From contig CANFHC010000024.1 in NCBI GenBank assembly GCA_947446575.1, forward strand, positions 1 through 49,147: a stretch of DNA of 49,147 nt. Reading direction: 5' to 3'. Positions 12,982-32,421 of this stretch are shown here, one piece after another. The stretch is from Bacteriovoracaceae bacterium (GTDB lineage Bacteria; Bdellovibrionota; Bacteriovoracia; Bacteriovoracales; Bacteriovoracaceae). The translations under genes were made by a program, and so were the position numbers. The notes beneath the pieces were generated by a model that ran no database searches, was not told the DNA's origin, and saw only the letters and a program-made list of their open reading frames with translations. Numbering within the stretch: the stretch's first letter is position 1; each line of letters opens with the position of its first letter.

Positions 12982-14114
12982 TGAAATATTTAATACTCCT
13001 AATATTAGTATTTCCAGAAATAATCTCGGCCCAAGATAAAGATTTGAGTTACTCAACAAATTGTTCCTCATCCAATAATCAGGTAACCATTTCTTTTGTA
13101 GGCGATATCCTCATCCATGAGGCGCTCTACAAAGTGGTTGTTAATGAAACAAAACATTTTTCTCAAATCTGGAAAAAAGTAGAAGGCCTTTTTTTGAAAG
13201 CAGACTTTTCCCTTGGAAACCTAGAAGGAGCTGCGGCAATGGGGATTGATGGGAGTGGAAAAGATCATGGCGATATTGGTTTTGTGTATGACGACTTTGT
13301 TTATTCGGGGACACATTTTTCATTTAATTATCATCCACGAATTCTTACTGATTTAAAAAATTCTGGTTTTGATTTAATTACTTCTGCTAATAATCACGCT
13401 ATGGATAGAACGGCTACTGGAATTGATAAAACAATTGCAGCGGCGAGAAGTGCAGGCCTCTCAACAATTGGGGTTCACGAAAGTTTTAATCCCGATGGAT
13501 TATTTTATAAAATAGCTTTCATAAATAATATCAATGTTGCATTTTTAGGTTGTACGGAAATGACCAATGGGAATAATGATTTTAAAAATCAAATCCTGAA
13601 ATGCTTCAATCATCCTGAAAAAATTTTAGGTATCATTCGCGATTTAAAAAACCACTCTGAGATCGATGCCATTATCGTCTTTCCCCATTGGGGAGTTGAG
13701 TATTCCCATACACCAGAGGCAATACAAAAATCTTTTGCCCACCAATACATCGAAGCAGGAGCAATCGCTGTTGTGGGTTCTCATCCCCATGTGATTCAAC
13801 CGTGGGAAAAATACATTGCGACTGATGGAAGAGAAGGATTCATCGTTTACTCTTTAGGAAATTTTGTCGCGGGTCAAGCAGGTCTTGAGCGAAAAACTGG
13901 ACCTGTCGCCTATTTGGGACTTTCTAAAAAAGAAAATGAGAAGGCCCGTATTTTCGGCGTTGGTTATACTCCAACTTATCGAACAGGAGCTGTTCTTAAT
14001 CCCATAGGATCTGGCGATGCTATCGAAGTATTAAAGCATGTCGCCAGTATGTTTGGGTCTAAAAGACGAATTGAACCAAATGCCAACTTACTTGAAAGTT
14101 TGTGCAAGCACTAA
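12981..14114 (+). CDS. CapA/PgsA-family metallophosphatase-like secreted protein
   Basis: From ATG 12981 the product has 377 residues and begins with a signal peptide (MKYLILLILVFPEIISAQ). The CapA (poly-gamma-glutamate capsule) motifs follow: SFVGDILIH, NLEGAA, ANNHAMD, FPHWGVEY, GSHPHVIQPWE and YSLGNFVAGQ, giving the D, H and N ligands of a calcineurin-like dimetal centre. CapA proteins help make or export poly-gamma-glutamate, but many family members have unknown substrates. An in-frame ATG at 12969 exists but would spoil the signal peptide start. The last 27 bases overlap the convergent ADP-ribosylglycohydrolase gene. Confidence 0.8.
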   Translation: MKYLILLILVFPEIISAQDKDLSYSTNCSSSNNQVTISFVGDILIHEALYKVVVNETKHFSQIWKKVEGLFLKADFSLGNLEGAAAMGIDGSGKDHGDIGFVYDDFVYSGTHFSFNYHPRILTDLKNSGFDLITSANNHAMDRTATGIDKTIAAARSAGLSTIGVHESFNPDGLFYKIAFINNINVAFLGCTEMTNGNNDFKNQILKCFNHPEKILGIIRDLKNHSEIDAIIVFPHWGVEYSHTPEAIQKSFAHQYIEAGAIAVVGSHPHVIQPWEKYIATDGREGFIVYSLGNFVAGQAGLERKTGPVAYLGLSKKENEKARIFGVGYTPTYRTGAVLNPIGSGDAIEVLKHVASMFGSKRRIEPNANLLESLCKH

Positions 14115-15497
14115 AGCTTTTTCTAAAATACTATTGTGATCAAAAGCTAAGTTCATCTGTTGAGCCTCAGTAATAGGAATCCATTTCGCTTCATCAGCAT
14201 CATCCATTCCTCGGATAAAATCTTTTTGAGATAGATAAGTTTTATCACCTATGCGATAAAAAAAAGCATGAGTTTTAGACCATGAAATACTATTGTCTCT
14301 AGGATCGCGGTTATTGCCTTCAAACTCTCCGACTAACTGCAGCTCAACAAAACTTTCAAGTTTTAGATTTGTTTCTTCTTTTAACTCGCGCAAAGCTGCC
14401 GATTTGGGATTTTCAAGTCCATCGATCCAAAAACTTCCTTCAAGAGCACTTGAATCAATGAATCCTCCAGGAAAGGCCATCATTCCTGGACAGGCTTCAC
14501 TGGTAAGTGAGCGTTTGATTAAAAGAATTTCATTCAATGGGTTGATGATAATTAAATCGACAGTGGGGTTTACCCCTTCATAAAAATAAGGATTCACTTT
14601 CTTATAAAGATCATTCCCCATAGTCTCTATGAGTTTTTTATCCCAAAGACCTTCCAAGAAATGTGGAGTGATGTTTTTGACTCCGTAAAAAGCTCCCGCT
14701 AATTGGCCAAAAACTGCTGCAGTTGTATCTGAATCTTCGCCTAGATTCGCTGCCAATAATACGCCATCATTAAAATTATCTGTTTGATAAAAAGACCATA
14801 GTGCAGCTTCCAAACAAGTGGTTGCTAAGCCCTTGGCTGAAATTTCGTCTCGAGATTTTTTTTGATAACTACCTAAAAGAATTTCTTCGATAGAAGAACA
14901 AACAAGCATGTCCTCTTTTTTGTATTTTAAAATATCACTCTTTGAGTATCCGTGCAGGGCCCGATGAATAAATAGGGCCAAAACTCTACAAGCATCAATG
15001 CATTCAATTGGAGCATGAGTAATTCGCGAGCTCTCCCCTGCATAAAAAAGAGTTTTCTCTACGTTGTGAAAATAAAAAAGGGGAATCGGAGCAAGCCGCA
15101 TAATTGATCCGTTAGTTGCTGGATCAGTTGGTGCTCCGGAATAAAGATCACTGTGCTCTTCAAAACGCAGTAAGGCAGCCTTGGTGGTATTGCCAATATC
15201 AAAACAATTTCCCGTGCAACTCATATAGCCTTCGCGAAACCATTGGTGAAATCGTTTAATAATATCTAGGGCATCAAAAGATTTTTTTTCTAATAAACTT
15301 GATCCAATGCAAAGAGCAAGACTAGTATCGTCAGTCCATTGACCAACTTTCAAATCAAATGGTCCACCTGCTCTGTAATTTGTTACTGGAATGTATGAGT
15401 CACGTTTTTCAAATTCAATCGGAGCACCGAGAGCATCTCCCACTGCTAAGCCCAGCAATGATCCAAGAAATCTATCTTTGGTAAATATGTTTTGCAT
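14088..15497 (-). CDS. ADP-ribosylglycohydrolase-Nudix fusion protein
   Basis: The 469-residue protein has two enzymes in one chain. Residues 1 to about 305 are a DraG/ARH-type ADP-ribosylglycohydrolase: LGLAVGDALGAPIEF, QWTDDTSLAL (metal ligands T-D-D) and GEDSDTTAAVFGQLAGAFYG. Residues about 312-469 are a Nudix hydrolase: LLIKRSL...MMAFPGGFID, then E-x7-REL-x-EET, the Nudix box glutamates, within a segment that resembles ADP-ribose pyrophosphatases. The pair would release ADP-ribose from protein or small-molecule targets and cleave it to AMP and ribose 5-phosphate. No NAD-biosynthesis gene is adjacent. Its 3' end overlaps the CapA-like gene. Confidence 0.85.
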   Translation of the reverse strand: MQNIFTKDRFLGSLLGLAVGDALGAPIEFEKRDSYIPVTNYRAGGPFDLKVGQWTDDTSLALCIGSSLLEKKSFDALDIIKRFHQWFREGYMSCTGNCFDIGNTTKAALLRFEEHSDLYSGAPTDPATNGSIMRLAPIPLFYFHNVEKTLFYAGESSRITHAPIECIDACRVLALFIHRALHGYSKSDILKYKKEDMLVCSSIEEILLGSYQKKSRDEISAKGLATTCLEAALWSFYQTDNFNDGVLLAANLGEDSDTTAAVFGQLAGAFYGVKNITPHFLEGLWDKKLIETMGNDLYKKVNPYFYEGVNPTVDLIIINPLNEILLIKRSLTSEACPGMMAFPGGFIDSSALEGSFWIDGLENPKSAALRELKEETNLKLESFVELQLVGEFEGNNRDPRDNSISWSKTHAFFYRIGDKTYLSQKDFIRGMDDADEAKWIPITEAQQMNLAFDHNSILEKALVLAQTFK

Positions 15498-18005: not shown

Positions 18006-18241
18006 TGTTTAGCCTTACTTTTATTATGGAGTGATACAGAACATATCGACCAACATATTTATATCTTAATATAATAATTCTTATGCTTAAATGTGTTATT
18101 AGGTACATAGCTACTTTAATCCATGAAGTTTTAATGGTTTAAATATAAATTTAAGTTCAGAACAAGTTGCCTTAAAACAACGAATTGTGGTCTAATTTAG
18201 TTTACTATTTTTTCATGCTGCTCTTACAAAGGACTCTGTCG

Positions 18242-19891
18242 TTGGATCAAGATATTTTTGAATGGATACTTTTATTGACTCGCTGGTTGCATATAACTGT
18301 AGCCGTTACATGGATTGGAACTTCAATCTTTTTTATGTGGCTGGATCGCACACTTAAAGTAAATGCAAGTTCAACTAGAGATGGTCACGTTGGCGAATTG
18401 TGGATGGTTCACGGTGGTGGATTTTATCATGTAGAAAAACTGCTAATGGGACCTACGAAAGTTCCAGAACATTTACATTGGTTTAAATGGGAATCGTACT
18501 GGACGTGGATGAGTGGTTTCGCTCTAATCGTTCTTATTTTTTATACTGGAGATGGAACGTATCTTTTAGACGCTAGTGTTTCCCAAATTTCTTATTGGCA
18601 AGGTGTTAGCATCGGGCTGTTTTCAATTGTTGGCTCGTGGTTTTTTTATGATTTTCTATGGGAGAGAAAACTAACGAAGACAACTCCGATAGTCGGTCAT
18701 GCTCTAACCATGTTGTGGTTTATTGGAATGGATTATTTTCTTTGTCATACATTAAGTGGCAGAGCTGCTTACATACATATTGGTGGTATGCTTGGAACGT
18801 GGATGACGGCCAATGTATTTATGCGAATTATTCCTCGCCAATTAAAAATGGTTGAAGCTTCTAGAAAGGGTGAACCAGTTAATCAGGACTGGGGGAAAAA
18901 TGCCAAAAATAGATCCACTCATAATACCTATTTTACTTTGCCAGTTATTTTTATCATGCTCTCAAATCATTTTCCTGGAACATACGGACATGAGTACAAT
19001 TGGTGTATCCTACTGGCCATGAGTGCGGCAGGTGCAGCTATTCGTGAATTTTTTGTGGTGAGAATGAATAATCCTAGTAGAGCTAAAAAGTTTTTAGCTC
19101 TTGGTATTTTAATCATTGCAACTTTGATGTTCTACTCTCGCGGCAAGTCAGCTCCGAGCGTTGAAGTTCATCAGCATTTAGAACCTGCTATAGTTGTTGA
19201 AAAGAAAGAGGCTAAAGAGGCCCCTGCAGCAACGACAGCTGCACCAACCACGACAGCTACAACGACGCTAAAAGGTACTATTTCCTTTTTAGGCACTCCT
19301 CCGTTGGGGAAAAAATTAAATCTTCCGAGCGGCTGCAGTGAAAATGCTAAAGGAAATGTTTACTCTAATGAAGTTTTAGTTAAAAACGGAAAACTAAAAA
19401 ATGTTTTAATCCGCATAACCAAAGGACTAGAAGGAAAAACTTATAGTGATATTCCAGCCAACACTATTGAGTTAGATCAAAGAGGATGTCTCTATTCTCC
19501 AAGAGTCATCGCAGTTCGTGTGGGACAAAAAGTTGACTTCATAAACAGTGATCCGGTTTTTCATAATATTAGATCGGTCACGACTGCTAATAAATCTTTT
19601 AACCTACCAATGCCTAAACAAGATCAACGCATAACTATGACTTTCGATAAACCAGAAATTTTTATGCAATCAAAATGTTCAATTCACCCCTGGATGGGGG
19701 CACAGATTGCAGTTCTTGATCATCCTTTTTTTAGTGTGAGCAATGATTTTGGTGAATATAAAATTGAAAATATCCCAGCTGGTACTTACACATTAGAAGT
19801 ATGGCATGAAGTCTTTGGCGTTCAAACTAAAGAGTTCACAGTTATTAATGGCACTCCTCTTAATTTAGATTTTCAATTTAGTGCAAAATAA
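18242..19891 (+). CDS. puuD: PuuD-type urate hydroxylase membrane domain fused to a cupredoxin-like copper domain
   Basis: I start at TTG 18242 (AAGGA eight bases upstream; family alignment); an ATG at 18215 is the alternative. Residues about 5-300 form an eight-helix membrane domain with the PuuD pattern LTRWLHITVAVTWIGTSIFF, GELWMVHGGGFYHVEK, HWFKWESYWTW, SGRAAYIHIGGMLGTWM and HNTYFTLPVIFIMLSNHFP. An Ala/Thr/Pro linker follows, then a domain with H441 and C479-x2-H482-x2-M485, a type-1 copper ligand set, and a carboxypeptidase-regulatory-like tail (about 495-549). Known PuuD proteins end in cytochrome c, which is absent (no CxxCH). It would oxidise urate to 5-hydroxyisourate. It heads the operon with hiuH 14 nt behind. 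Confidence 0.85.
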   Translation: MDQDIFEWILLLTRWLHITVAVTWIGTSIFFMWLDRTLKVNASSTRDGHVGELWMVHGGGFYHVEKLLMGPTKVPEHLHWFKWESYWTWMSGFALIVLIFYTGDGTYLLDASVSQISYWQGVSIGLFSIVGSWFFYDFLWERKLTKTTPIVGHALTMLWFIGMDYFLCHTLSGRAAYIHIGGMLGTWMTANVFMRIIPRQLKMVEASRKGEPVNQDWGKNAKNRSTHNTYFTLPVIFIMLSNHFPGTYGHEYNWCILLAMSAAGAAIREFFVVRMNNPSRAKKFLALGILIIATLMFYSRGKSAPSVEVHQHLEPAIVVEKKEAKEAPAATTAAPTTTATTTLKGTISFLGTPPLGKKLNLPSGCSENAKGNVYSNEVLVKNGKLKNVLIRITKGLEGKTYSDIPANTIELDQRGCLYSPRVIAVRVGQKVDFINSDPVFHNIRSVTTANKSFNLPMPKQDQRITMTFDKPEIFMQSKCSIHPWMGAQIAVLDHPFFSVSNDFGEYKIENIPAGTYTLEVWHEVFGVQTKEFTVINGTPLNLDFQFSAK

Positions 19892-19905: not shown

Positions 19906-20229
19906 ATGATCAGTACACATATACTTGATACGACTAAAGGAATGCCGGCCAGTGATGTCGCCATTATATTAGAAAAAAAAGAAAATGATAAATGGATTAA
20001 CTTAGGTACGGGAAATACAAATGCTGACGGTAGACTCGTTTTTGATTGCCCAAAAGCAGAAGGCGTTTATCGACTGAATTTTAAAATTGAAGATTATTTT
20101 AAACGAATTGGGACTGAATCTTTTTTTATGGATACACCTGTTATTTTTAAGATCACTAATCTTGATCGCAAATACCACGTCCCTCTTTTACTTAATCCTT
20201 ACGGATACTCTACTTACCGAGGAAGCTAA
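19906..20229 (+). CDS. hiuH: 5-hydroxyisourate hydrolase (transthyretin-like, HiuH)
   Basis: The 107-residue protein begins ISTHILDTTKGMPASDVAI and ends in YSTYRGS, the two hallmarks of the HIU hydrolase family; the family catalytic His and Arg near the N-terminus (H5) and middle and the C-terminal YRGS are present. It opens the 5-hydroxyisourate ring to OHCU. It follows the PuuD-like gene by 14 nt with AAGGA and precedes the large fusion gene by 5 nt. No signal peptide, so cytosolic. Length matches the family. Confidence 0.95.
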   Translation: MISTHILDTTKGMPASDVAIILEKKENDKWINLGTGNTNADGRLVFDCPKAEGVYRLNFKIEDYFKRIGTESFFMDTPVIFKITNLDRKYHVPLLLNPYGYSTYRGS

Positions 20230-20234
20230 CTAAA

Positions 20235-23200
20235 ATGTCTAACACAAATTGTGATATTCCCTACTATAAAGATTATGTTTCTGATTCAATTCTTTCTTAC
20301 TTAATGAAAGAAGCAAATCCTGTTTTGGGTGTCCCTGATTTAATGGAAGTTGGCAGCCATCAGGGCCTAGAAACTCCAGAAGCACTAGCTTTTTTATGTG
20401 AGCTCTATGAATCCCTAAAACATGATTTGAATAAAGTTTTAAATCAAAGGATTATTGATCGACAATTTATTGATCAACAAACGCGTGCCTGCTTTGAATT
20501 TAATCAATTCCTAAAACGCGATTTGCTCTCTGCTGAATATAAAACCATCATAGGCATTACAGACTCTACTGGTAGAATTGTTATTGGCCCTAAAAATGAA
20601 TTTTATTCTAAAAAAGGCGCAGGCCTTCCTATTGCAAAAATTCCAAGTTACTTAGATGGAAATCATGTGACATTATTTGGTCCACCTGATGACACCAAAC
20701 TGTCTATCAATGCTATGAATGCCTATCACCGCAAACTACCGAAAGAGCCTGCAGTAATAGAAGAACTCTTGGCCACTCAAAAAAATAATCCTTTTTGGGG
20801 AGCAGATGATGAGGATTCAAAAACTCCTATGCGAGCTGACTTACAATCTGCGGGAGTCAATTTAACTGAATGTATTGCTGGCACAATTACCCACACTGAT
20901 CCTAAAACAAAAAAAGAATATAATTTAGAAAAAGATCATTTAGCACTTCCTATTAAAAGATTTCCTGGATTAGCACTTCCTTCTTTTTTTCTTTTTTATA
21001 AAAATAATCCACTTCCATTGCACATGTATGATTTCGCTCTTCACTTTTTTAAAAATTGGAATAACGAAAAAGCGCTCGCTTTTTATGTTCCTAAATTAGA
21101 AAATGAAGAAGAGGCCCGTTATATTCGAGTAATGATTGAAACTGCTGAAGCTATGATTAAAAAACTTCATCCTGAATATAAGTTGGGATCGATACGTTTA
21201 ATGATTGTTTTAGAAAATCCCAGAGCTGTTTTTCGCGTAAACGAAATCATGGATGAATTACATCCTTACTTTGTAGGGGCCTCGCTGGGATGGCATGATT
21301 ACCTAGCCTCCACCGCAAGACTTTTTAAAGAAGACGCCAACTATAGAATTCCAGTAAAAGCAGATCCAAATATTGTTATTAAATATATTAAGGCCTCTCA
21401 TCACCTGCTTGCTGAAGTTGTTGGATCTCGTGGTGGAATAAAAGTTGGTGGAATGTACGGAATTTTACCGGTTACTACTGATCTTAGCAGCCCATCTTTT
21501 CAAGTTACCATGAAAGGCTTTATCAAAGATGTCATTACTCAGTTTAAAAGAGACCTCACGGGATTTTGGGTTGCCCATCCGGATTTCGTGCGAATTGGCC
21601 TTGCTCTCGTTGAAGGCTGGAAAAAATATGCCAGCGGCGATAAAGAGAAACTAGAAAGATTGGTATGTGATTTATTAGATGAAAAATACCATCAAGAAAT
21701 ACTAGATTTTATCTCGGGCCCTGATATTTCTGGATTAGATATTAAAGATGCGCTTTATCCCCGCTCTTTAATTGTGGCCGATATTAAAGAATCAAATTTT
21801 ATTGCTAACAATCATCCTGATGAAATTCGTTATAATGTATTTCAATCGTTGCAGTATTTAACTGACTGGCTTTCTGGAAATGGTTGTGTAGCCTTGCCTG
21901 CAAGCATAGAAGGAATTCCTGTGCGTGTAATGGACGATCTTGCAACAGCAGAGAGATCGCGATGGGAAGTTTGGCATGAACTTCACCATGGGCGTTTTGG
22001 AATTGAAGAATTTTTAAAAATTGCTCACGAAGAATTGCATTTTATCAGAAAAGATTTATCTAATAATAAAAAGATTGTTCAGGTTAAATGGAATGAGCGC
22101 ACGGCCCTTTGGTATCCTGTGGCGATGAAGCTTATGATAAAGCTTATGACTGATCATAAGCCAGTAGAGTTTGCAACAGAATTGCTTCTTCCATTTACGA
22201 CTCCGTCAGTTCGCGACTCAATTGATCCCTGGCAAGCTGTTTGTAAAATTGATTCCAAAAAATATAAAATTTCTGCTTCAATCAAAAAATTCAATTATTA
22301 TTTTGAAATGTGTGGAAGCTTGCAATTTGCAGCTGCAATGGCAAAAAACACAGCACTTGATTTTTCAGAAGCACAGAAGTCTATATTAGCTTTTGATAAA
22401 AATAATATCTTAGAAGCTGCTGGGTTTCACGGCGATATAGGAGAAGGCAAAACAACTTTAGATGCGATGGCAGCACTTGAGCAGTCAAAAGTACTTAATG
22501 AAGAAGAAACACTCAAGAATCTTTTACGTTCTGAGGGGGAAAAATACCGCCAAAAATTCGGAATGAAATTTTTAGTTTCAGCTAAAGATAAATCTGGAAG
22601 TGAACTTCTAGCTCTTTTACAAGCTCGAATAAATAATTCTGAAGCAGAAGAATTAGTAAATGCCAAAGAACAATTATGGCAAATCACTTATAAGCGAATG
22701 TCAGCTACACCTATCACACTTTTGCAGGATAGAATTATTGCAAGTTTTAAAAAGCATGGCATTCATGACGCTCAAATCGCAATATCTAGTAGTGAATTTA
22801 AAACTCAAACCATTGTCTTGGGATCAGCAACTAGTGAAACGTGGTTTGAAATGGCCTCGCTTAGTAAAACGATTGGCAGTGCGTTTGCGCTAGAGTATTT
22901 TAAAAAGAAAAATATATCGCTTTCTACCTCAGTCAATGACCTATTAGAAAAAACGAAATCGACCTTTAGATTAAAATCTTTAGATACTACTCATCCTGAA
23001 TGGGCCGCTAAAACGACGCTACTTCATTTAATGAGTCACTCCGCTCTTAATATGCACTACGTGAATGGAGTTCCCGCTGATCGTGAGATGCCAAACGTAA
23101 GAAATTTTCTCGAAGGCAATGCTGATTATCATTACGCCCCGATTGGTGTTCTCAACTCTCCAGGAGAAAAATTTCAATACTCCGGTGGAGGATTTTTAGT

Positions 23201-24956
23201 TCTTGAACATTTAATTGAAGCACTGGAAGAAAAATCTATTTATGATCTTACTCGTCCTTTTTTAGATCAATTAGGAATGAAGAATTATAGTTTCCAACAA
23301 AAGACACTTAAAGATGTTCAATATGCTTCTGGATATTTAGCTGATGGATCGATTGTATTAGGCTCAAGAAAAATGTTTCCTGCCTTTGCCGCTGGAGCAA
23401 TGGGCACGGCTTTTGATATGCAACAATTTCTTCAACATCTAACTGTCGCCTATCATTCATTAGAAGGATCAGGTCCCATCTCTCACGACACTGCTATGGC
23501 GATGTTGTTTGGACGAGATCTTGGTTGTCAGAAATTCATGGCCTCAAATATGGGACTTGGAATTTTTACTGCGGACGCTGGTCCTAACAAATTGGCCCTT
23601 CATCAAGGGGCCAATGATGGTTTTAGATGTCTCTATATTCACTGCTATGCTGGTCCCGATAAAGGTCTGGGAATGACAATTCTTTGTAACGCTGAATTTA
23701 ATGGAGTGTTATTTAATTCGGAAGTGGCCCAAGCAATTTTAGCTGAATTTAAAATGCAAGGAGTGAATTTAGAAGCTTTCAAAGCTAGTTTTGATGCTGC
23801 TCAAATTCCAGAAGAAGAAATTGTAAATATTGGTTATAAAAATTTAGTCTTTAATTCATTTACACCTGCTCTTCCTGAAATAATTAAAGATCATGGGCCT
23901 CTGGATCCACTGGCAAAATTTAATTTAGGTATTGGTGGCAAAATTCTCGAAGTAACAAACCAAAAGTTTGCACGCGCAGAAAATCTTCTCTCTCCTTATT
24001 TACCGGTTTTTAATCCTGACCTTTTTGGCGTACAGGGAAAAATTATGGATAGCTGGGAGACCGTACGGCATAATCCACTTCCGTGTGACACATTACTCTT
24101 AGAATTAAAAAAACCCGCTTCAGTTCACTATGTTTCCGTCTCTACCAAGTTTCACTTGGGGAATCAGGCACAATTTATAAAAATTGAAGGATTTGAAATT
24201 AACGAATTGAAATGGATCGAGATAATTCCTAAAACATCACTAAGTGGACATGCACTCAAGTTGATGATTGCAACAAACGATAAAAATAATATCTTCAATG
24301 AAATTCGAGTTTCTAATTTTCCTGATGGTGGAATTTCTAGGCTCGGTTTATATGATAACTCTCTGCCGGCTGATGAAAAAAATAAATATCAAGAAGTGAC
24401 TGTCGCCAAGTCACAAGGCTTCTCTGATGAAATTCCAAAAACTCTTAAGCCACTTGCTGCTCCTTATGCTCCAAATGCTGAAGAAATAAAATTTAACTGG
24501 AGTCTCTTAAAAGCTGGCGATGAAGTGGACGTTGGAAACTTGGCTTACGGAGCAAAACTTTTATACGCTTCTAACGAGCATTATGGTCCAGCGATTCAAA
24601 CCATCTCACCGTTTGGTCCTATGCATATGTTTGATGGATTTGAATCGGCCAGAAGCCGTGAAGAGGGTCATCACGAAGAAGTTCTTATTGCTCTTGCAAG
24701 ACCTTCCGTCATTCACCGTATCGTTATGGACTTTAGTTATTTTGTGAACAATAGCCCACTCTATGCAAGTCTCATGGGCCTGGTGGGCCCTGAATGGATA
24801 CCACTTGTAGAAAAAACGTTAGTGAAGCCATTTGCAGGAAATAAAAAAGAATTCATCCTAACTTGTGACAAAAAAATAGAACAAGTAAAAGTGATTGCTC
24901 ATCCTGATGGTGGAGTAAATCGGGTGAGAATTTACTCGCGTAAAAAGCTCGAGTAA
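20235..24956 (+). CDS. 1573-residue fusion: malate synthase-like, OHCU decarboxylase, beta-lactamase-like, allantoicase
   Basis: Domains in order. (1) About 1-680 malate synthase-like: LAFYVPKLENEEEAR, E327 in IVLENPR, D355 in GWHDY, SRGGIKVGGMYGILP, FWVAHPDF, and D568 in VMDDLATAERSR, equivalent to the MEDAATAEISR catalytic Asp; it would turn glyoxylate and acetyl-CoA into malate. (2) About 685-825 OHCU decarboxylase: H732 in FHGDIG, E749-Q, KFGMKFLVSA, R821, making S-allantoin. (3) About 825-1180 serine beta-lactamase fold: S875-L-S-K878, Y982-S-G984, H1123-Q-G. (4) About 1225-1573 allantoicase, two repeats: ENLLSPYLPVFNPDLFG, KIMDSWETVRH, FPDGGISRLGLY; then HMFDGFESARSREEGHHEE and HPDGGVNRVRIY. 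It starts after GAGGAAG, 5 nt behind hiuH. No signal peptide, so cytosolic. Individual residue equivalences are my alignment by eye. Confidence 0.9.
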   Translation: MSNTNCDIPYYKDYVSDSILSYLMKEANPVLGVPDLMEVGSHQGLETPEALAFLCELYESLKHDLNKVLNQRIIDRQFIDQQTRACFEFNQFLKRDLLSAEYKTIIGITDSTGRIVIGPKNEFYSKKGAGLPIAKIPSYLDGNHVTLFGPPDDTKLSINAMNAYHRKLPKEPAVIEELLATQKNNPFWGADDEDSKTPMRADLQSAGVNLTECIAGTITHTDPKTKKEYNLEKDHLALPIKRFPGLALPSFFLFYKNNPLPLHMYDFALHFFKNWNNEKALAFYVPKLENEEEARYIRVMIETAEAMIKKLHPEYKLGSIRLMIVLENPRAVFRVNEIMDELHPYFVGASLGWHDYLASTARLFKEDANYRIPVKADPNIVIKYIKASHHLLAEVVGSRGGIKVGGMYGILPVTTDLSSPSFQVTMKGFIKDVITQFKRDLTGFWVAHPDFVRIGLALVEGWKKYASGDKEKLERLVCDLLDEKYHQEILDFISGPDISGLDIKDALYPRSLIVADIKESNFIANNHPDEIRYNVFQSLQYLTDWLSGNGCVALPASIEGIPVRVMDDLATAERSRWEVWHELHHGRFGIEEFLKIAHEELHFIRKDLSNNKKIVQVKWNERTALWYPVAMKLMIKLMTDHKPVEFATELLLPFTTPSVRDSIDPWQAVCKIDSKKYKISASIKKFNYYFEMCGSLQFAAAMAKNTALDFSEAQKSILAFDKNNILEAAGFHGDIGEGKTTLDAMAALEQSKVLNEEETLKNLLRSEGEKYRQKFGMKFLVSAKDKSGSELLALLQARINNSEAEELVNAKEQLWQITYKRMSATPITLLQDRIIASFKKHGIHDAQIAISSSEFKTQTIVLGSATSETWFEMASLSKTIGSAFALEYFKKKNISLSTSVNDLLEKTKSTFRLKSLDTTHPEWAAKTTLLHLMSHSALNMHYVNGVPADREMPNVRNFLEGNADYHYAPIGVLNSPGEKFQYSGGGFLVLEHLIEALEEKSIYDLTRPFLDQLGMKNYSFQQKTLKDVQYASGYLADGSIVLGSRKMFPAFAAGAMGTAFDMQQFLQHLTVAYHSLEGSGPISHDTAMAMLFGRDLGCQKFMASNMGLGIFTADAGPNKLALHQGANDGFRCLYIHCYAGPDKGLGMTILCNAEFNGVLFNSEVAQAILAEFKMQGVNLEAFKASFDAAQIPEEEIVNIGYKNLVFNSFTPALPEIIKDHGPLDPLAKFNLGIGGKILEVTNQKFARAENLLSPYLPVFNPDLFGVQGKIMDSWETVRHNPLPCDTLLLELKKPASVHYVSVSTKFHLGNQAQFIKIEGFEINELKWIEIIPKTSLSGHALKLMIATNDKNNIFNEIRVSNFPDGGISRLGLYDNSLPADEKNKYQEVTVAKSQGFSDEIPKTLKPLAAPYAPNAEEIKFNWSLLKAGDEVDVGNLAYGAKLLYASNEHYGPAIQTISPFGPMHMFDGFESARSREEGHHEEVLIALARPSVIHRIVMDFSYFVNNSPLYASLMGLVGPEWIPLVEKTLVKPFAGNKKEFILTCDKKIEQVKVIAHPDGGVNRVRIYSRKKLE

Positions 24957-29452: not shown

Positions 29453-30118
29453 ATGAAGATTATTAACTCAATGCTCTTTTGGATAGTGAGAAATTTTTTA
29501 AAAAGACAACACTCGCTGGAGTTTATTGGACCTGAAACAATTTCTAGTTCAAGCACTCAAGATCTAATTACCTTTAGAGATGGAATCCTTTCTAAAACTG
29601 CACCCTATCTTTATGATGAAGAAGGATTAGAAAACGAAGCACTCGGAGAATTTGATCAGCGATCATTTCACTTCGGTGTGAAATTTCAAGGAAATGTCGT
29701 AGCCTACGTCCGATTAACTCCGGCCGGATTTGAATTAAGTACTTTAGGACAATCTTGGAGTGCCATCTCAAGACACTATGATGATTATATCGAATTCAAT
29801 CGACTTGTAGCTGACCCAAATATTCCTAAGCGCGGGTATTTTGGCAGACTACTTTTGCTTTATGTGGGGTTGTGGCTATTTGAGCGATCAAATTATAAAG
29901 GAATAGTTGCAATATGCCGACCTGAAAGAATCGAATTCTTAAATAGTTTTGGTCTTTCTTCAGTCACAGGTCTTACAACTTATTTACCAAAGAGAAAAGA
30001 AAACTATCAGATGCTTATTGGATCAAGAAAAGAAATATTAACGACAATACTAAAGAAATACCTCACTGATAATAGAATGTTTAATTCTGCTTATCGTATG
30101 GGCTCTCTTTCAAAATAA
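29453..30118 (+). CDS. GNAT-fold N-acyl amino acid synthase / autoinducer synthase-like (FeeM type)
   Basis: The 221-residue protein shows the FeeM/LuxI-like layout: an opening that reads FRDGILSKTAPYLYDEEGLENE, then D..S.HFGV with GNVVAYVRLTP, a catalytic-region EFNRLVADPNIPKRGYFGRLL and a late ERIEFLNSFGL. FeeM-type enzymes move an acyl group from acyl carrier protein to an amino acid, making long-chain N-acyl amino acids; LuxI relatives make homoserine lactones. The ATG follows AGGA. Close, same-strand oxygenase and transferase genes suggest a small biosynthetic operon. Donor and acceptor cannot be read from sequence. No LuxR-type gene is nearby. Confidence 0.7.
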   Translation: MKIINSMLFWIVRNFLKRQHSLEFIGPETISSSSTQDLITFRDGILSKTAPYLYDEEGLENEALGEFDQRSFHFGVKFQGNVVAYVRLTPAGFELSTLGQSWSAISRHYDDYIEFNRLVADPNIPKRGYFGRLLLLYVGLWLFERSNYKGIVAICRPERIEFLNSFGLSSVTGLTTYLPKRKENYQMLIGSRKEILTTILKKYLTDNRMFNSAYRMGSLSK

Positions 30119-30133
30119 ATTATAGGATTAAAA

Positions 30134-30862
30134 ATGACAGCATCAAAAACAATTGCAGAATTAAAACTTATCTTAGACGATGAAATGGGAAATCTTGCTA
30201 ATGGCGATAACTTAGAAAAAGTTCTAACTCCAGGATTCGTAGATAAAAGACTTTATGCCATTTATTTAATTGAGACTTATCACTACACCTATCACAATGC
30301 TAGAAACCAGGCCCTTGTTGCAACAAGACCAGAGAAACTCGACGCTCGTTATATGAAGTATTGCTTAAAACATGCAATGGAAGAAACGGGACATGAGCTC
30401 ATGGCCGTTCACGATTTAAAAAAAGCTGGGTTCTTGCAAAAAGAATTAAAAGAATTTAGAGACACAGATCTGCCAAAACCATTGATGACTACAGAAGTTT
30501 TAATTGCTTATTTATACCGAGTTTCGACGACAGGAAATCCACTTGCTCGTTTAGGTTATAGTTTTTGGGCAGAAAGAGTTTATGAATACCTAGCACCTTT
30601 AATGGAAATGTTTACTCACTTAGGAGTAGAAAAGTCGGCGATGACATTTCTAACTGACCATTCAACAATTGATGCTGATCACGCTGAAGAAGTCGATCGC
30701 GCAATAAATATGTTCGCTAAAACGGAGCAAGATTGGGAGGATATCGAAAATTGTATGAGAACATCGTTGCGCTTAAAAGCTAGAGTGATGGATTCTGTTT
30801 TTGAAGAATTTGTTAAATTAAAAAAAGGCATATCTAATCGTTACGATTTTTTAAATAAGTAG
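30134..30862 (+). CDS. Heme-oxygenase-like diiron protein (HDO / iron-containing redox enzyme)
   Basis: The 242-residue all-helical protein is of the TenA/PqqC-like HDO fold. Candidate metal ligands are E and H in YLIETYHYTYHN, H and E in KHAMEETGHEL, and the H-x3-D-x2-H motif in LTDHSTIDADHAEEVD, which is the ligand pattern of heme-oxygenase-like diiron oxygenases (such as the N-oxygenase SznF and fatty-acid decarboxylase UndA). It lies 15 nt behind the FeeM-like gene and 4 nt before the hexapeptide-transferase gene, so it very likely acts on the same product. Substrate unknown. Confidence 0.75.
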   Translation: MTASKTIAELKLILDDEMGNLANGDNLEKVLTPGFVDKRLYAIYLIETYHYTYHNARNQALVATRPEKLDARYMKYCLKHAMEETGHELMAVHDLKKAGFLQKELKEFRDTDLPKPLMTTEVLIAYLYRVSTTGNPLARLGYSFWAERVYEYLAPLMEMFTHLGVEKSAMTFLTDHSTIDADHAEEVDRAINMFAKTEQDWEDIENCMRTSLRLKARVMDSVFEEFVKLKKGISNRYDFLNK

Positions 30863-30866
30863 GCAT

Positions 30867-31511
30867 ATGAATAATAACAATAAATCTCTGCTTTTTTTTG
30901 TAGGACTCATTCCGGCCATGCTGATTATGCTTATGGTGGGTGTTCTCATTAAATGTGTCGTGGAGCAAAGTACGGTTCTGGCCTTTGTTTTTATCGGAAT
31001 TATTTATTTATTACCACCAGTTATGTGGAGGATTTTAAGTCCATTCATTCCTGCCAAAATGGGAGCAAGCTATTTAGGAGTGAACACTGATTCAGTAAAT
31101 GGATGGTTTGTTAGTTATCAAATTCAACAAATTTATAATGCACTACCTTTTTTAGAAGCAGTACTTAAACTAATCCCTGGTCTCTACTCTGCTTGGCTTA
31201 GGCTTTGGGGAGCAAAAATTGGAAAAAAAATTAACTGGACAGCACAAAGTAAAATAGTTGATCGCCCATTTATTCACATTGGAGACCGATGTCTTATTGG
31301 CAATGAATCCTATCTTTCTGCACACGCCATTAAGAAAAAAGATAATCGTTACCTGCTCTATTTAAAAGAAGTCACAATTGGATCCGATGTTGTTCTTTCT
31401 CTTCAAAGTATCGTTGGTCCTGGTGCGATCATTGGAGATCGTGCATTTATTTCGGCGAGGGCTGCCGTTCATCCAAACGCCAAAATCTCGGAAGGTCAAT
31501 TATATGAATAA
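30867..31511 (+). CDS. Membrane-anchored hexapeptide (left-handed beta-helix) acyltransferase-like protein
   Basis: The 214-residue product has two hydrophobic helices near the N-terminus (about 8-35 and 38-58), an amphipathic region, then hexapeptide repeats with the [LIV]-G-x4 pattern: AKIGKKINW, IHIGDRCLIGNESYLSAH, VTIGSDVVLSLQSIVGPGAIIGDRAFISARAAVHPNAKI. This is the left-handed parallel beta-helix of LpxA/LacA-type acyl transferases. The membrane anchor suggests a lipid substrate. It overlaps the next gene by eight bases. Confidence 0.75.
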   Translation: MNNNNKSLLFFVGLIPAMLIMLMVGVLIKCVVEQSTVLAFVFIGIIYLLPPVMWRILSPFIPAKMGASYLGVNTDSVNGWFVSYQIQQIYNALPFLEAVLKLIPGLYSAWLRLWGAKIGKKINWTAQSKIVDRPFIHIGDRCLIGNESYLSAHAIKKKDNRYLLYLKEVTIGSDVVLSLQSIVGPGAIIGDRAFISARAAVHPNAKISEGQLYE

Positions 31512-32421
31512 TAAAAAAAATGAAACAGAAGCGCTTAAAATATTTTTTTCTGAAGATGAAGTCTTTCATATTCCAACAGATTCAAAAAATAAAGTCCTTC
31601 AACAATTATTAGAATCTGCTTTTGGAAAATTAACAATTGAACCGAAAAAATCTGAATTCCCAAATCATTTTTGGTCTGAAAAACGATATGGATTTGATAA
31701 GTCAAAAAGTTATCTAGCTCTAGATGTCCAACAAAAGCAGAGGACGCTTCGCCACTTAACAGAATTAAATTTATCTCTTTCCTATTTTATTGAAAAATCT
31801 GGTCATAATTATGGCGCTAAAATGATTTTGTTAGCCAAAAATCAAGATGAAAAAGCACTTTATAGTTTGTTTGCTGCTGAAGAGGCCATTCATCAAAAAG
31901 AATTTATTAATCATATGTGGTTTACTCCCAACAAAGATATTCATTGGCATCCAATGCTAGATGTTTTGGGTGAAGTTATGTGCGAGGGTGAACGAAATAC
32001 ATTAATCTACGTTGTTCAGGTTTTACTTGAAGGTTTTGGAATGTCATTTTATTCAGGTTTGGGCGAATCTTGTGAATTTTCTCCTATGAGAAATGTTTAT
32101 TCAAGAATATTGCAAGATGAGGCACGTCATCATGGCTCGGGAGTAATACTCGCTAATTTTTATGATGTTGATCAAAATGAAAAAGAACAAATTTTTGAAT
32201 ACACCAAAAAATTCATCCACGCACTTCAAAATGCAAGTTGGTTTGTTAACGCCATTGAAAGAGAATCTGGCCCCATGAGCATAGAAGAAAAGAAAACGTT
32301 TTTAGAGAATATTTCATACGAAGAAACGTTGACGGCGCGAAGAAGAAAGATAAGAGATATGCTTTTAAAAGTTGATTCTTGGGGATTAGTTTCAATGCTT
32401 GAGAAAGATAAAGTTATTTAA
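31504..32421 (+). CDS. Ferritin-like diiron oxygenase-type protein
   Basis: Read from ATG 31504, which overlaps the previous gene by eight bases and has GGAAGG upstream, the product has 305 residues. It shows two ExxH pairs, AAEEAIHQKEF and LQDEARHHGSG, plus an intervening Glu in QVLLEGFGM and an earlier Glu (HLTELNLSLS), the four-helix-bundle diiron ligand set. Members include N-oxygenases such as AurF, ribonucleotide-reductase R2-like oxidases and desaturases. It closes the four-gene set with the FeeM-like synthase. Its exact subfamily is uncertain. Confidence 0.7.
   Translation: MNNKKNETEALKIFFSEDEVFHIPTDSKNKVLQQLLESAFGKLTIEPKKSEFPNHFWSEKRYGFDKSKSYLALDVQQKQRTLRHLTELNLSLSYFIEKSGHNYGAKMILLAKNQDEKALYSLFAAEEAIHQKEFINHMWFTPNKDIHWHPMLDVLGEVMCEGERNTLIYVVQVLLEGFGMSFYSGLGESCEFSPMRNVYSRILQDEARHHGSGVILANFYDVDQNEKEQIFEYTKKFIHALQNASWFVNAIERESGPMSIEEKKTFLENISYEETLTARRRKIRDMLLKVDSWGLVSMLEKDKVI

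Follow-up and report, generated by a model that had tools for sequence, protein, structure and literature searches.

AllB/DAL1, the canonical allantoinase (amidohydrolase superfamily, TIGR03178), is a metal-dependent amidohydrolase barrel. A non-homologous allantoinase, PuuE (NodB/CE4-like, TIGR03212), was reportedly found in 2008 by missing-gene logic. Fused purine-catabolic enzymes are known from Cryptococcus (Dal2-Dal3-Dal3), and the Dal7 malate synthase of the yeast allantoin cluster serves glyoxylate disposal (PMC3646786). The described urate oxidase PuuD is a cytochrome c form, and its description mentions neither cupredoxin nor malate nor lactamase (PMC4562309).

Here, we analyse a locus at which malate synthase, OHCU decarboxylase, a serine beta-lactamase-fold domain (BL domain) and allantoicase form one chain. 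Quite probably, this chain is a tetrafunctional catabolic enzyme which, after PuuD and HIU hydrolase have acted, would carry OHCU to malate with the BL domain as allantoinase. The initial annotation knew of no description of the four-way combination, and the open-access literature offered none either: in open-access full text (most subscription journals and all preprints lie outside that scope) we found neither the four-domain chain nor a beta-lactamase-fold allantoinase described. Such a gap in the open-access literature is no proof of novelty.

Results

The fusion gene occupies positions 20235-24956 (+) of the window, i.e., the whole stretch of 49,147 nucleotides that was analysed, as a single uninterrupted open reading frame with an ATG start, encoding 1573 residues. 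A Pfam domain search found all four domains above gathering cut-offs, in the order (N to C) malate synthase, OHCU decarboxylase, BL domain and allantoicase, which bears out the chain proposed in the initial annotation; OHCU decarboxylase and allantoicase, on whose detection by HMM search that proposal hung, were both recovered. The catalytic residues that it had named (D568 of malate synthase; H732, E749 and R821 of OHCU decarboxylase) are present and conserved in alignments, and so is the PDGG motif of both allantoicase repeats in alignment A2 of relatives, where the first (P684-D-G-G, A2 numbering) is invariant and the second, near residue 1558, is at least 90% conserved. AlphaFold models of residues 7-688 and 680-1573 reached mean pLDDT values of 91.7 and 91.4, respectively.

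Domain 1, malate synthase (residues 7-655; 20253-22199, +), was delimited by Pfam, by alignment to E. coli malate synthase A (3cuz) and by the model. Its membership of the malate synthase family is supported by MS_TIM-barrel (PF01274, residues 245-456, E 1.3e-20) and MS_C (PF20659, residues 529-648, E 1.7e-9), both over cut-off, by the fold (top structural match 3cv2_B: Z 35.2, 496 aligned, rmsd 2.4) and by R242, E327, D355 and D568, which align with catalytic positions of the E. coli enzyme and are kept in all alignment rows spanning the site. We take their E. coli counterparts to be the catalytic Arg, the Mg-binding Glu/Asp and the Asp base. Domain 2, OHCU decarboxylase (residues 690-826; 22302-22712, +), rests on PF09349 (residues 711-822, E 6.7e-17, 62.9 bits against a cut-off of 24), on alignment to 5uou/3o7h and on the His/Glu/Arg set of H732, E749 and R821, invariant in A2; it belongs to the OHCU decarboxylase family. 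Domain 4 (residues 1231-1573; 23925-24953, +) is an allantoicase of two repeats, matched by PF03561 in two stretches (E 9.4e-47) and related to yeast allantoicase 1sg3 (phmmer E 3.3e-33, Foldseek E 7.7e-27). All three domains score well below NCBI equivalog cut-offs (for malate synthase A, TIGR01344, 145 against 594.5 bits) and are therefore divergent copies of their families. Some same-genus genomes have, in addition, a malate synthase-isocitrate lyase protein of ~991 residues encoded by another gene, so the malate synthase of the fusion is a copy in its own right. That protein (L096:1621-4596, genome G002) has isocitrate lyase C-terminal to malate synthase, which combines the glyoxylate shunt in a single polypeptide; a 984-residue frame in G001 (L097) is its counterpart, the isocitrate lyase part having been seen in L096.

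Domain 3, the candidate allantoinase (residues 828-1210; 22716-23864, +), has the serine beta-lactamase/DD-peptidase fold. PF00144 covers residues 857-1156 (E 4.2e-22, over cut-off), and the best matches of the model are beta-lactamase-fold hydrolases, e.g., 7spn_A (Z 34.2, 328 aligned, rmsd 2.7). Three motifs are invariant in 32 aligned fusion proteins: the nucleophile motif S875-x-x-K878 (22857-22868, +), Y982-S-G at the position of the class C YxN (23178-23186, +) and H1123-Q-G at the position of KTG/HxG (23601-23609, +). N939, H941-Y-V, R1131 and C1137 are likewise invariant in these sequences. The Pfam match, the SxxK/Tyr/HxG motifs and fold matches at Z 34 place the domain in the serine beta-lactamase/class C-type hydrolase superfamily; it is no true class C beta-lactamase by the NF033085 equivalog (21.6 against 415 bits). 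A common fold by itself is no proof of function, and sequence alone does not set an allantoinase apart from esterases and amidases that share its fold.

The fusion is the last gene of a cluster in the order PuuD, HIU hydrolase, fusion, with gaps of 14 and 5 bases. The PuuD-type integral-membrane urate oxidase (18185-19891, +; PF06181, residues 24-315, E 3.4e-106), predicted to convert urate to HIU, has a C-terminal region with cupredoxin and CarboxypepD_reg-like segments, an amicyanin-like match at 442-510 and, at residue 498, a type-1 copper-like C-x2-H-x2-M motif; CxxCH is absent from this PuuD. HIU hydrolase (19906-20229, +; PF00576 at 19909-20223, E 6.5e-32), predicted to yield OHCU, ends in YRGS. 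No canonical allantoinase is encoded in this operon. Because the operon consists of PuuD, HIU hydrolase and the fusion, the neighbours would lead from urate to OHCU and the chain from OHCU to malate, with the canonical allantoinase missing.

The same gene order was found again in other Bdellovibrionota, and in Planctomycetota HIU hydrolase adjoins the fusion in divergent orientation. Stand-alone clusters such as those of G562 and G086 read PuuD-AllB-allantoicase-OHCU decarboxylase-HIU hydrolase; in G020, AllB, allantoicase, OHCU decarboxylase and HIU hydrolase lie together with PuuD not adjacent. Compared with these clusters, fusion genomes have the same gene set, with the BL domain replacing AllB and malate synthase added. 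The PuuD of two stand-alone clusters (L086, L092) has CxxCH, and that of L076, L087 and L089 has the copper-type motif. Elsewhere in the window, an ADP-ribosylglycohydrolase is fused to a NUDIX domain (14088-15497, -), and a run of four genes (29453-32421, +), for a FeeM-like N-acyl amino acid synthase (weak), a haem-oxygenase-like protein, a hexapeptide transferase and a ribonucleotide-reductase-small-chain-like protein (weak), may form a small biosynthetic cluster.

By its relatives, the window's genome belongs to Bdellovibrionota. Of 97 related genomes, about 20 carry the fusion at full or nearly full length, and a scan of public genomes added further carriers among Bdellovibrionota and Planctomycetota MAGs. 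Full-length relatives are about 42-71% identical to the window protein (Planctomycetota MAG fusions, ~52-58%). Within Bdellovibrionota, 96 of 369 genomes encode allantoicase: 68 have the fusion type only, 25 stand-alone allantoicase only and 3, all of genus g9, both kinds. Frames of at least 1200 residues were found in 54 of the 96, all among the fusion-only set; the remaining fusion-only genomes, with contig-end cuts, broken frames or frames not individually listed, were classed by a weaker allantoicase match, and most of the assemblies compared are incomplete. In a tree of full-length chains, the Planctomycetota fusions form one clade (support 100/100) that midpoint rooting places among Bdellovibrionota rows, a position compatible with a single transfer; one member labelled Chitinophaga (L038) is probably a mislabelled bin. 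A search of the class Planctomycetia gave the fusion in 2 of 198 genomes and a stand-alone allantoicase match in none of the 198, which adds little to the test of replacement.

Could the fusion be an artefact? An assembly join or frameshift, which the initial annotation had raised, or a pseudogene might be suspected from the frames broken inside the OHCU domain in G009, G536 and G370. Against this, the frame is uninterrupted not only in the window but in dozens of further genomes, across Bdellovibrionota and the one Planctomycetota clade, with the same domain order and conserved active sites; this reading is already refuted, and its probability is practically nil. As for the broken frames themselves (L076 in G009, L081 in G536 and L079 in G370, whose contig begins at the break), they may reflect sequencing error or decay. 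A true gene split at the OHCU/BL boundary was considered for G009 and G536 and rejected, the breaks lying inside the OHCU domain.

Across genomes, the fusion replaces the canonical allantoinase. All 25 stand-alone-only genomes have one (24 AllB, 1 PuuE), whereas neither AllB nor PuuE passes its cut-off in any of the 68 fusion-only genomes of the 369-genome Bdellovibrionota set. AllB exceeds the cut-off in 23 of the 369, 22 of them stand-alone genomes and the other G021, from genus g9; partial matches were found in two more stand-alone genomes, beside the allantoicase in G526 and at a contig edge in G579. The sole genome with PuuE over cut-off, G042, has a stand-alone allantoicase. The fusion chain itself has no AllB (TIGR03178) match. 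Ignoring relatedness, Fisher's test for this exclusion gives p ~3e-23, and 4e-21 when the fusion side is limited to the 54 genomes with frames of at least 1200 residues; both overstate the number of independent events because fusion genomes have common ancestry. Swaps between the fusion and stand-alone states occur within genera g157 (G548/G549) and g168 (G563/G562), and families f1, f6 and f8 each contain both states. AllB was also below cut-off in all of 16 further fusion genomes reached via loci: 11 from the Planctomycetota clade and 5 others, some of which may overlap with the 369. The PuuE search covered the 369 Bdellovibrionota genomes.

Genus g9 carries both forms. Its three genomes (G021, G375, G376) have a two-domain BL-allantoicase gene without the OHCU domain, an arrangement confined to this genus, plus other shorter or stand-alone allantoicase genes; AllB was seen in G021 only, fused to OHCU decarboxylase. 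In two readable sequences, the BL domain has Y982 replaced by F (FSG), HQG by HHA and a changed N939-x-H941, which fits a loss of function where the canonical route persists. The genes lie at L077:4743-7034, L078:6472-8853 and in L082; in L077 and L082, a separate gene for malate synthase and a short frame resembling allantoicase lie close by.

Discussion

Recognised enzymes of the operon cover the way from urate to malate save two steps: the allantoinase step from allantoin to allantoate, and the formation of glyoxylate from ureidoglycolate. The conversion of OHCU to malate by one chain, as initially suggested, gains support from the four domains, their conserved active sites and the operon; as written, that suggestion lacked the step from allantoin to allantoate and assigned no function to the BL domain. 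The activities of the individual domains, the sequence in which they act, the role of the BL domain as allantoinase and any advantage of their fusion are our inferences. Since fusion-only genomes have neither AllB nor PuuE over cut-off and stand-alone genomes all have one of them, the BL domain most likely performs the missing allantoinase step, an assignment that rests on genome logic and conservation.

The route that we propose would run as follows. Urate would be oxidised to HIU by PuuD and passed by HIU hydrolase to OHCU, from which the OHCU decarboxylase domain would form S-allantoin. The BL domain would then open the hydantoin ring to give allantoate: presumably, the ring amide is attacked by S875, K878/Y982 acting as base and H1123 occupying the KTG/HxG position. 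The allantoicase domain would release urea, leaving ureidoglycolate; loss of the second urea to yield glyoxylate may be a side activity of allantoicase, spontaneous decay or the work of some other enzyme. Finally, the malate synthase domain would condense glyoxylate with acetyl-CoA to malate, which would clear away a reactive aldehyde and supply the TCA cycle. Yeast DAL7 is a precedent for malate synthase as a means of glyoxylate disposal when allantoin is used (PMC3646786).

Two other readings of the BL domain have to be weighed against this one. The domain might act on ureidoglycolate, releasing urea or ammonia to give glyoxylate, with the allantoinase coming from elsewhere, and it is true that ureidoglycolate lyase (PF04115) is absent from the fusion genomes among the 97 relatives, where only G086, a stand-alone genome, has it. 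However, PF04115 is found in only 1 of 12 stand-alone clusters, so the ureidoglycolate step is missing irrespective of the BL domain, and what varies with its presence is AllB/PuuE. Ring-amide hydrolysis also suits a beta-lactamase fold better than the ureidoglycolate step does, and we regard this role as unlikely.

The other reading assigns the allantoinase step to a divergent dihydroorotase- or hydantoinase-like amidohydrolase elsewhere in the genome and leaves the BL domain with an unrelated or regulatory role. Against the AllB model, amidohydrolases of some fusion genomes do reach as many as 291 bits; however, stand-alone genomes such as G020 have matches near 280 bits in addition to true AllB. 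A hidden canonical allantoinase was sought in the window's own genome and rejected: none passes the cut-off, and the single substantial AllB homologue is dihydroorotase-like at 132 bits, a score within reach of same-genus genomes that lack allantoicase (106-139 bits in G005, G008, G010 and G011). Moreover, an amidohydrolase elsewhere would leave the invariant serine-hydrolase motifs unexplained, and we hold it to be improbable. It appears likely to us that domain 3 represents a third, independently evolved allantoinase class, built on a penicillin-recognising serine-hydrolase fold and set within a single OHCU-to-malate chain that would couple purine nitrogen salvage to carbon assimilation.

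If true, this would supply the absent step of urate catabolism in a large part of one phylum and in a clade of a second, and it would show the beta-lactamase fold in a role that had not been expected of it, the opening of a natural five-membered ring amide. The chain could also pass intermediates between its sites, as the initial annotation suggested; with all sites on one polypeptide, it would allow direct tests of whether substrates are handed on from OHCU decarboxylation to hydantoin opening, allantoate cleavage and finally glyoxylate capture. A pathway enzyme of this kind can stay hidden behind an automated label, be it 'serine hydrolase' or 'malate synthase'.

Among known systems, AllB/DAL1 would share with the BL domain the proposed reaction, and it holds the same place in pathway and gene cluster; fold and mechanism are unrelated, and genomes with the fusion type alone are without AllB. 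PuuE differs in fold as well, and the only PuuE-positive genome of the 369 has a stand-alone allantoicase. Cryptococcus Dal2-Dal3-Dal3 also joins purine-catabolic enzymes, but in a protein without the four-domain chain, a beta-lactamase-fold member or malate synthase. The PuuD of the window carries a cupredoxin at the place of the cytochrome c of the described PuuD (PMC4562309). E. coli malate synthase A (3cuz/3cv2) and the fusion domain are alike in fold and in the four aligned catalytic positions, but the latter is only ~28% identical, has an extended N-terminal part and is joined to OHCU decarboxylase. The closest comparison for the BL domain is with beta-lactamase-fold hydrolases (IS11 esterase 7spn, P. 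abyssi 2qmi, R61 DD-peptidase, D-amino acid amidase, LACTB and EstB), with which it has the fold and the SxxK/Y/HxG framework in common. At 16-19% identity to them, it has YSG where they have YxN and, unlike them, carries the family-specific N939, H941-Y-V, R1131 and C1137 and is fused to urate-pathway enzymes.
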